Source: Campylobacterales bacterium
GTDB lineage: Bacteria; Campylobacterota; Campylobacteria; Campylobacterales; Sulfurovaceae
Reading direction: 5' to 3'
Length of the DNA stretch: 64,000 nucleotides
NCBI GenBank assembly: GCA_014763895.1
Contig: JACXUM010000002.1
Coordinates: 49,270-113,269 of the forward strand
The position numbers and the translations under genes are program-made. Shown here piece after piece: positions 54,915 through 58,146 of this stretch (position 1 is its first letter; every line of letters begins with the position of its first letter). The notes under the pieces are model-generated. The model was not told the origin of the DNA. It did not search any database and saw nothing but the letters and a program-made list of their open reading frames with translations.

Positions 54915-55614
54915 TACGACCGACTCACTCGATCTCTATGCAAAGGTAGAGGACCTCCTTGGGGTAAAAGAGGCTGCTCCCCGTTTATATGCGCATTATC
55001 TTCTTTTTCTAAATTCCGTTGATTGCAGCACACTTCTGGATGTCGGGTGCGGTTCGGGTGATTTTCTTTTCCAGATGCAGAAGGCTTTGGAGATCGACAC
55101 GCTTAAAGGGATCGACCTAAGCCCTGTGATGGTTGAAAATACGCAAAAAAAAGGCATTGATGCGGCATGCATTGATCTTTGCCATTTTGAGGGCAGATTT
55201 GATGTTATTACGGCAGTTTTTGATATGCTCAATTATCTTAACCCATCTGCACTTGAACACTTTTTGGGATGTGTTTATGAGCATCTCCATGCTGGAGGGT
55301 TTTTCCTCTGCGATATCAACACCCGCTATGGGTTTGAACAGGTTGCCGTGGGATCGTACATCGTCGATGACGAGGATCGGTTTTTAGCGATAGACAGTGA
55401 TTTTGAAAAGGATCAGTATATCTCCGAGTTTACGCTGTTTGAAAAAGAGAATGACGGGTGTTTTAGAAAGTCCCAGGAGACGATACGGCAGTATTATCAT
55501 CCGATCGAAAAGATCGTTCGCTCAAGCGGTTTGAAACTGGTGGAAAAAAGTGAGGTCAATCTCTATGATCTCGATGACGCCGATAAACATTTTCTTGTAT
55601 TGCAAAAAATCTAA
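54907..55614 (+). CDS. Class I SAM-dependent methyltransferase
   Basis: 'LLDVGCGSGDFLFQMQKA', 'FDVITAVFDMLNYL'. Confidence 0.9.
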   Translation: MANTTDSLDLYAKVEDLLGVKEAAPRLYAHYLLFLNSVDCSTLLDVGCGSGDFLFQMQKALEIDTLKGIDLSPVMVENTQKKGIDAACIDLCHFEGRFDVITAVFDMLNYLNPSALEHFLGCVYEHLHAGGFFLCDINTRYGFEQVAVGSYIVDDEDRFLAIDSDFEKDQYISEFTLFEKENDGCFRKSQETIRQYYHPIEKIVRSSGLKLVEKSEVNLYDLDDADKHFLVLQKI

Positions 55615-56048
55615 CTGGCTTTCCCGATAATCCATATAAAATTCAAGTTGTAGAATATATGAAGGAGTATACTGGGTATGATACTTTGGTACTGCTCTTT
55701 AAAATAGCCAAATATCAGGGAAGGGAAAAAGACCAGTCCCGCCCAAAGAGGGGCATGGTAAATCAAGTGAATCGCTGAAAAAAGGAGCGAGGTTAAAAGA
55801 TTTGCCAAAGAGAGATGAAAAAAGAGGAGGTATTGTTTTGTTTTTCTTCCGATATATTCCTGTATAACCCCGCGAAACGTCAACTCCTCAATAACCGGAA
55901 AGATGATAAGCGTCCATATAAACGTTTCTTTCTTAAAAAAAAGCTCTTTGGTTGTTACAGGTTGGCTGCCAAACAGCCAACTGTAGAAAAAACAAAAGAG
56001 CGGCGCGGCGATTAATGCCGCTGCATAATAAAGTTCTTTTCGTCTCAT
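55611..56048 (-). CDS. CPBP-family glutamic-type intramembrane protease, candidate C-terminal sorting enzyme
   Basis: 'PVIEELTFRGVIQEYIG' (EExxxR), 'SAIHLIYH', 'LLHIFYNLNFIW' motifs; multiple TM; 7 nt downstream of a protease with a Cys-type CTERM tail. Confidence 0.85.
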   Translation of the reverse strand: MRRKELYYAAALIAAPLFCFFYSWLFGSQPVTTKELFFKKETFIWTLIIFPVIEELTFRGVIQEYIGRKTKQYLLFFHLSLANLLTSLLFSAIHLIYHAPLWAGLVFFPSLIFGYFKEQYQSIIPSILLHIFYNLNFIWIIGKAS

Positions 56049-56055
56049 TCTAATA

Positions 56056-58146
56056 TTAGTTTATGAATTTGCGTCTCCAGGGATAAAAGATGGATAGAAC
56101 CAACATCAAGACGAATAAGGCATCAAACTTTTCATTATTTGGGTTGTAAGTACAACCTCCGCCGCCGCCACCGCCGCCAGGTTCATCGGAGGATTGATCG
56201 ACAGATGCGATCATCTTTCCTGCATTTAAAAGTCCTGAGGTTGATACTTTCCCATTATACGCACTTTTTAGTGTTATATTATCTAAAAGTATCTGCTTGC
56301 GCTGGCTGGCATTGAGCCCATTATCAATGGAAGCTAGCAGGCCCAATGCTCCTGTTACATGTGGGGTAGCCATCGAAGTGCCATCGCCATATGCATAATT
56401 GTTTGCAATACTGCAACTCGAAATATTGACATCATCCATATTATATCCTTCATAAGCAACAGAGGAGTCATTTGTTCGAGCAATAGCAATTTGCAGGTTT
56501 GAAACAAAATAATCAGATGGTATGATCAATGAAACTATTTTCCAGTCAGGGCTTATCTGCCCGGAAATTTTAGTGATGTGATCCCAGGTTTGGCTGTCGT
56601 TTTTGGAAAGATAGAGAGCTAAATAATCGTAATCTTCTTCAATTTCACCTTTGATTTTCATATTGACACAGACCCCTTGATTAGCTGTAGAAACAGCATT
56701 TGATAGATCGATAGTATTGCGAAGTAATGCCAGTTGAACTCTATTGTTGGTATAGTTACCATCCAGACTGTCGCTTAAAGAATGGGTAGAAGATGCGGAC
56801 ATACTATTATCAAGTGTCCAGTGCTCCGTAGTGATATCAGTTTTATTGCTATCGGTGCTATCATAGGTGTAAAAAACCCAGTTATTTGTACCATTTTCGA
56901 AGTTGTCGCTAAAGTAAACAGGTGCATTGTTTGGAGTAGCAGTTGTTGGGATAGTACTAACTATATCGACGCCAGGAGCAGCCAGATCAACCGTTGTAGC
57001 GCCATAGTTTGAAAAGGAAGCAAGATTTCCATTGGTATCGGATGCCGCAACCGATACAATGTTCGCTATATCATAGTTTGCAGGATAGAACTGTGTGATA
57101 TCATTATTGTCACCTTTATAATCATCGCCGCCATTCCCAGCAGCGGCTATAAAGAGTATATTTTCAGAGTCGGCTGTTTGGATAGCCTCTTGCAGGGAAG
57201 GATCAGATTCTCCTTCTGATCCCCAGGAATTATTGGTTGCTACAATGTTCGTCCCATTTTGTTTAAGCTTATTAAAGTAGTTGACACATTCTATCGCATC
57301 ACTGGTATACCCTAAGCCCGATGCATCCAAAAATTTACATGGGACTATCTTGACATTCCAGTTTACCCCTGCAATACCTGTTTCGTTATCGCCAACTGCA
57401 CCGATCGTCCCGGCGGTATGTGTTCCATGGCCATTGTCATCCATCGGATTGCTGTCGCCATTTACCGTATCAATGCCGTGCACGTCATCTATATAACCGT
57501 TACCGTCATCATCCACTCCATTATTTGGAGTTTCATCGGGATTTATCCAGATATTTCCACTTAGGTCACTATGGGTATAATCCACACCGGTATCGATGAT
57601 GCCTATGACCACATCCTCGCTGCCGGTAGTTCTGTCCCATGCAGAAGTTACATTGATATCTGTGATAGGGTCATGGTTATTTTGTAATCCCCACAGTTCA
57701 TTGAACTTTGGGTCATTTGGTACCTCGCATGCATGAACGATTTGATCTTCTGTTACACTCTCTACCCCCGGCATTTTTTTGACCGCTTCAATGAGCTGAT
57801 CAACGCTTAATGTGGAAGATTCAATGACTAAGAGCTGTTTGGAGGCAGACTTACCGGAGGCGGATGATTCGCTTATGCTTTTTGATGGCGCAAGGTAAAA
57901 GCTTTTTTTGATTTTAAATTTAGCGGCATTGGTTTCCAAAGATTGTAAAAAAGTCTCTTTGATCTCCCCAGCTTTTAAAACAGCTATCACTCGGGCATGG
58001 GATTTTGGAGGTGTCTGTTCGGGTTTTGACTGTGATGGGGTTTTGATCGTACCGATAAGACTTTTCATGGCGTCTGAAATATCTGCGAATAGCGGTGCTG
58101 AAATCATGCCTGATAAAATCAATCCAGTTAAATATCTGCTTTTCAT
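56056..58146 (-). CDS. S8 subtilisin-like serine protease with propeptide, inserted domain and C-terminal Gly-Cys/TM/Arg sorting signal
   Basis: Asp 'IGIIDTGVDYTHSDL', His 'NGHGTHTAGTIGA', Ser 'GDGTSMATPHVTGAL'; tail 'GGGGGGGGCTYNPNNEKFDALFVLMLVLSIFYPWRRKFIN'. Confidence 0.96.
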   Translation of the reverse strand: MKSRYLTGLILSGMISAPLFADISDAMKSLIGTIKTPSQSKPEQTPPKSHARVIAVLKAGEIKETFLQSLETNAAKFKIKKSFYLAPSKSISESSASGKSASKQLLVIESSTLSVDQLIEAVKKMPGVESVTEDQIVHACEVPNDPKFNELWGLQNNHDPITDINVTSAWDRTTGSEDVVIGIIDTGVDYTHSDLSGNIWINPDETPNNGVDDDGNGYIDDVHGIDTVNGDSNPMDDNGHGTHTAGTIGAVGDNETGIAGVNWNVKIVPCKFLDASGLGYTSDAIECVNYFNKLKQNGTNIVATNNSWGSEGESDPSLQEAIQTADSENILFIAAAGNGGDDYKGDNNDITQFYPANYDIANIVSVAASDTNGNLASFSNYGATTVDLAAPGVDIVSTIPTTATPNNAPVYFSDNFENGTNNWVFYTYDSTDSNKTDITTEHWTLDNSMSASSTHSLSDSLDGNYTNNRVQLALLRNTIDLSNAVSTANQGVCVNMKIKGEIEEDYDYLALYLSKNDSQTWDHITKISGQISPDWKIVSLIIPSDYFVSNLQIAIARTNDSSVAYEGYNMDDVNISSCSIANNYAYGDGTSMATPHVTGALGLLASIDNGLNASQRKQILLDNITLKSAYNGKVSTSGLLNAGKMIASVDQSSDEPGGGGGGGGCTYNPNNEKFDALFVLMLVLSIFYPWRRKFIN

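Follow-up and report, generated by a model that had tools for sequence, protein, structure and literature searches.

What connects a secreted subtilase with the small intramembrane protease encoded directly behind it? The question is posed by a two-gene locus in a Campylobacterota genome, inferred to belong to the genus Sulfurovum, lying within the 64,000-nucleotide stretch of DNA analysed here, which we call the window. A preliminary description had read the two genes as a dedicated enzyme/substrate pair, in which the protease cleaves near a cysteine in the C-terminal tail of the subtilase and possibly lipidates or anchors it there. We put the probability at roughly 0.8 that the two genes form a Sulfurovum protein-sorting module of the MrtJ/JDVT-CTERM type, whose subtilase would be exported through Sec, held in the membrane and cut by MrtJ at or after the cysteine.

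Results

The window pair and its family assignment

Both open reading frames lie on the minus strand, with the CPBP protease frame 7 nt downstream of the subtilase frame (Table 1), and what had been described of them, from strand and spacing to the Gly8-Cys-TM-Arg tail and the EELTFR, H and HxxxN motifs, proved accurate. The subtilase has a signal-peptide-like N-terminus, a weak I9-like propeptide and a split S8 domain bearing a weak MAM-like insert, and its C-terminus, SSDEPGGGGGGGGCTYNPNNEKFDALFVLMLVLSIFYPWRRKFIN, contains Cys665.

Table 1. Features of the subtilase and MrtJ genes, in window coordinates
Feature	Position	Strand	Evidence
Subtilase (S8), 696 aa, secreted, with JDVT-CTERM tail	56056..58146	-	PF00082 6e-48; JDVT-CTERM 39.4 bits
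JDVT-CTERM sorting signal, residues 660-696	56059..56169	-	profile match covers residues 660-694
Cys665 codon, invariant Cys of signature motif GGGCTYNP	56152..56154	-	invariant in 27/27 tails
Tail hydrophobic segment, residues 676-690	56077..56121	-	by inspection
Arg/Lys cluster RRK, residues 691-693	56068..56076	-	sequence; conserved among tails
MrtJ, CPBP/Rce1-type glutamic intramembrane protease, 145 aa	55611..56048	-	NF033192 98.9 bits; PF02517
EELTFR catalytic motif of MrtJ, residues 54-59	55872..55889	-	alignment of relatives
His94 of MrtJ	55767..55769	-	invariant in alignment
HIFYN (HxxxN) motif of MrtJ, residues 130-134	55647..55661	-	H and N invariant

A run of the NCBIfam models, which the preliminary description had proposed as a check, placed both proteins over the curated cut-offs, at 98.9 against 75 bits for the enzyme (MrtJ, NF033192; E=2e-28) and 39.4 against 27 bits for the tail (JDVT-CTERM, NF033191; E=4e-10). 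In 14 control genomes there were zero JDVT matches at E<=0.01 and no MrtJ over cut-off (0/14), and with E values this low and controls this clean the matches are not a matter of chance. By the curated cut-offs the tail is thus a JDVT-CTERM and the protease is MrtJ, as had been suspected, which makes the pair an added member of a known system and not a new type of system. The enzyme did not reach the cut-off of Mrt_core (NF040914; 64.5 vs 100 bits), nor those of MrtX, MrtC, MrtP or MrtS.

The details fit this assignment. The tail has all the JDVT-CTERM parts, namely the signature motif with its invariant Cys, the hydrophobic helix and the basic end, and the CPBP catalytic residues EExxxR, H and HxxxN are all present in the enzyme, where E54, E55, L56, F58, R59, H94, H130 and N134 are invariant across 19 relatives. 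AlphaFold2 gave a confident model of MrtJ (pLDDT 86); neither a PDB fold search with that model nor a PDB sequence-profile search with MrtJ returned a match, so the Rce1 fold rests on the Pfam match, and the catalytic geometry is a predicted one.

Co-occurrence of MrtJ and the tail

Does the tail follow the enzyme from genome to genome? Co-occurrence was considered at three levels: the phylum (398 genomes), the genus Sulfurovum (78 genomes) and MrtJ genomes outside the genus (19). Across the phylum, MrtJ and JDVT over their cut-offs coincide in the same 5 of 398 genomes, and weaker CPBP relatives, below the MrtJ cut-off, occur without a tail in other Campylobacterota. Within Sulfurovum, MrtJ is found in 18 of the 78 genomes, every one of which has a tail (18/18), and 59 of the 60 MrtJ-less genomes have none over cut-off; the single tail-only genome (G429) is an assembly 78% complete, one of whose tails runs off a contig end. 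The association within the genus has a Fisher p of 9e-17, a statistic that ignores kinship. Enzyme distances also track tail distances (Mantel r=0.76, 0/5000 permutations), again with phylogeny ignored. In the whole genome that contains the window (1.77 Mb), profile searches recovered a single JDVT tail and a single MrtJ, so the earlier remark that no other protein in the window carries this tail can be widened to the whole genome.

Outside the genus, a tail over cut-off is present in 14 of the 19 MrtJ genomes; of the other five, one gives a weak match and G481, G485, G489 and G495 give no JDVT match. CPBP homologues in genomes lacking any Cys-containing tail had been named beforehand as speaking against the link; none appear among the 18 MrtJ genomes of the genus, whereas the five outside it without a confident tail leave part of the objection standing there. 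The reason may be incompleteness (for these assemblies completeness is unstated), divergence of the tails or some other role; one of the genomes carries a stop within mrtJ. A related objection, loss of the tail in close orthologues that retain the CPBP gene, is not borne out by the nearest orthologous pair (G397), which keeps both. On the sequence patterns as a whole, the enzyme-tail link, which was the main inference of the preliminary description, is well supported.

In the thiotrophic symbiont of Bathymodiolus heckerae, an mrtJ-like frame is interrupted by an internal stop (L131) and the genome has no JDVT match, possibly a joint loss of mrtJ and tail.

A conserved tail on changing cargo

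The 27 complete tails share GGGC[ST]xNP.....D, followed by the helix and then mostly YPxRR; the positions that never vary among them, on cargo that is otherwise unrelated, are GGG, C, the NP of CxxNP and D10. Written more fully, the tail pattern is GGGC[ST]YNP....FD..., then YP.RRK. The proteins that bear it include subtilases, a C39-like peptidase with PKD, choice-of-anchor F (NF033657) and choice-of-anchor O (NF040591) proteins, LamG-like (lectin-like) and Ig-like proteins, and a repeat-type protein that matches nothing in Pfam and, by eye, resembles a propeller. Choice-of-anchor F is confined to tail-positive genomes in a sample of 80 relatives. Two further mrtJ pairs, in MAGs of Campylobacteraceae and Nitratifractor (L122, L124), have a GGGCTYNP tail on what resembles, by eye, a C10-type cysteine peptidase.

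The subtilases themselves occur with and without the tail. Homologues in MrtJ genomes are tailed in 5 of 6 cases, the exception being G448, whose MrtJ is paired with a choice-of-anchor F protein. Six MrtJ-less genomes also encode a homologue (G445, G431, G401, G398, G415 and G461), and in none of these is there a JDVT match anywhere; the readable C-termini are tailless, the G415 copy running off its contig and the G461 copy being in pieces. The tailless subtilases of G431, G401 and G448 (L109, L111, L114) end in a short hydrophobic stretch with no basic end (NNFVLPYLLFW, LMNPIYYLLGL and MNPSIITYLLF), which may be a different C-terminal signal.

One enzyme, probably several substrates

In the 18 adjacent pairs of the genus the tailed gene always lies upstream of mrtJ on the same strand, with a spacing of 0-12 nt in 17 pairs and 44 nt in one. 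Is the enzyme then dedicated to its neighbour? That part of the preliminary description holds for the window genome and stops there, since relatives combine one enzyme with two to four tailed proteins of different kinds. Five genomes (G410, G419, G420, G426 and G454) have one intact mrtJ and 2-4 tailed genes, from which we conclude that a single MrtJ probably serves several substrates. Some of these tailed genes sit on other contigs or far from mrtJ, and such distant tailed genes are present in MrtJ genomes and absent from complete MrtJ-less ones. Outside the genus G484 and G492 are also multi-tailed, and the state is therefore not peculiar to Sulfurovum.

G410 also holds a degenerate second mrtJ with several stops (contig C124; L086:2106-2348), located downstream of a JDVT-tailed choice-of-anchor F gene that has been retained; with an intact mrtJ elsewhere in the genome, this arrangement is consistent with action in trans.

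Genomic position of the pairs

The window pair is flanked by a hisG-methyltransferase block and by rpsR-ssb-rpsF, and in the nearest relative, G397, the pair adjoins the same methyltransferase. In G225 the gap between methyltransferase and rpsR is about 70 bp with no pair inside, the pair lying beyond holA, which is also its place in G462. Both sites, between methyltransferase and rpsR and beyond holA, are occupied in G219, with different cargo: within contig C45, 25000-44999 (L077), some 8 kb separates its two mrtJ/JDVT pairs, which lie on opposite strands, flank rpsR-ssb-rpsF-holA and carry a C39-like protein and a subtilase. We considered a single cassette, fixed in its site and swapping cargo, and rejected it. 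The mrtJ at the methyltransferase-rpsR site of G219, with C39-like cargo, is closer to the enzymes of G462 and G225 than to that of the window, and so is not simply the window cassette with new cargo.

Discussion

A predicted route and its alternatives

How might the module work? By analogy with MrtX, the likeliest route would run from Sec export through parking in the membrane and a MrtJ cut next to the Cys to delivery by type II secretion (T2SS), genes for which are in the genome. An N-terminal signal peptide would direct the subtilase to export through Sec, and the C-terminal helix would keep it in the inner membrane while the Arg cluster stays in the cytoplasm. MrtJ, which is a minimal glutamic intramembrane protease of the Rce1-like type, would recognise the GGGC[ST]YNP signature and take off the helix by a cut at the Cys or immediately behind it; possible lipidation would follow, then T2SS delivery and surface display. 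We infer all of this, the cleavage and its site included. Contig C45 of the window genome carries gspC, D, E, F and G-like genes, of which GspD and GspG exceed their cut-offs while the rest fall short. The T2SS was dismissed as a discriminating factor: a GspD match is found in 77 of the 78 genus genomes, MrtJ-less members included.

Perhaps the two genes are only chance neighbours or a co-inherited cassette, with the CPBP protein acting elsewhere and the tail serving as a plain membrane anchor. Adjacent genes can indeed hitch-hike, and the pairs of several genomes lie near the same ribosomal-protein/holA region; however, the same enzyme adjoins unrelated cargo with only the tail in common, and tailed genes distant from mrtJ occur in MrtJ genomes with none in complete MrtJ-less ones, so that we regard this as very improbable. 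Hardly more credible is a sortase-like MrtJ, one that would attach the new C-terminus to an acceptor by transpeptidation or transamidation. For rhombosortase, which belongs to a different class of intramembrane proteases, transamidation of the cleaved substrate has been suggested (see the discussion in PMC11980579), but the known activity of Rce1-type enzymes is hydrolysis, with a Glu that activates water, and the MrtJ alignment has no conserved Cys able to act as a nucleophile.

A more serious alternative, though still an unlikely one, is that MrtJ cuts the tail and the Cys is not lipidated: the tail would be a temporary anchor, and a soluble protease would be freed to the medium through the T2SS. 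None of the pairs includes a recognised lipidating enzyme, the acyltransferase of myxosortases is still to be identified (PMC11980579), and proteases and lectin-like proteins are plausible as free exoproteins. Against such release stand the Cys, invariant in 27/27 tails, and the related MrtX system, which requires its Cys and yields surface anchoring (PMC11980579). The sorting module, with a cut at or after the Cys, remains our preferred reading.

We see even odds for a broader picture, in which Sulfurovum has a distinct JDVT branch (GGGC[ST]YNP....FD...YPxRRK) that would act as a general surface-display route: one MrtJ would serve unrelated cargo in trans, cargo genes would be swapped beside the enzyme, and the tail would be gained or lost with the presence of the enzyme. 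The natural variation of the genus, with its tailed and tailless subtilases, changed cargo, several tails per enzyme and a decayed second enzyme, offers test material. For reconstitution in laboratory E. coli, the system is available here in a very small form, with an enzyme of 145 aa and one native substrate.

Comparison with known sorting systems

GlyGly-CTERM and rhombosortase share with the window pair a Gly-rich tripartite tail on secreted proteases and T2SS delivery; unlike it, that tail is processed by a rhomboid serine protease and is not known to be defined by an invariant Cys (see PMC6219818). Synerg-CTERM and MrtS are closer, with a Cys tail and a CPBP enzyme, but the window enzyme falls far under the MrtS cut-off (57.5 vs 130). 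The MYXO-CTERM/MrtX system has in common with it a CPBP core protease, a Cys-containing tripartite tail and a T2SS in the genome. MrtX differs in being longer (its profile has 238 positions, and the window MrtJ matches the C-terminal part only) and in having dozens of substrates. It cuts the MYXO-CTERM of TraA in a Cys-dependent manner, and normal surface anchoring depends on it (PMC11980579); in the literature on myxosortases and JDVT, where that paper was the one relevant source on MrtJ, we found no experiment on any MrtJ, and MrtX is the relative shown to work.

The predicted MrtJ/JDVT-CTERM system now extends to Sulfurovum. As reported, with the original prediction credited to Haft 2024, it is a system of beta- and gammaproteobacteria in which MrtJ is accompanied by just one JDVT-CTERM protein (PMC11980579). 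The window pair resembles it in having both proteins over the cut-offs, a tailed gene adjoining mrtJ, and the invariant Cys, helix and Arg cluster; it differs in its host, one of the Campylobacterota, and in its subtilase cargo. The single JDVT protein per enzyme is true of the window genome and not of the five multi-tail relatives in the genus, where one enzyme is accompanied by several tailed proteins.
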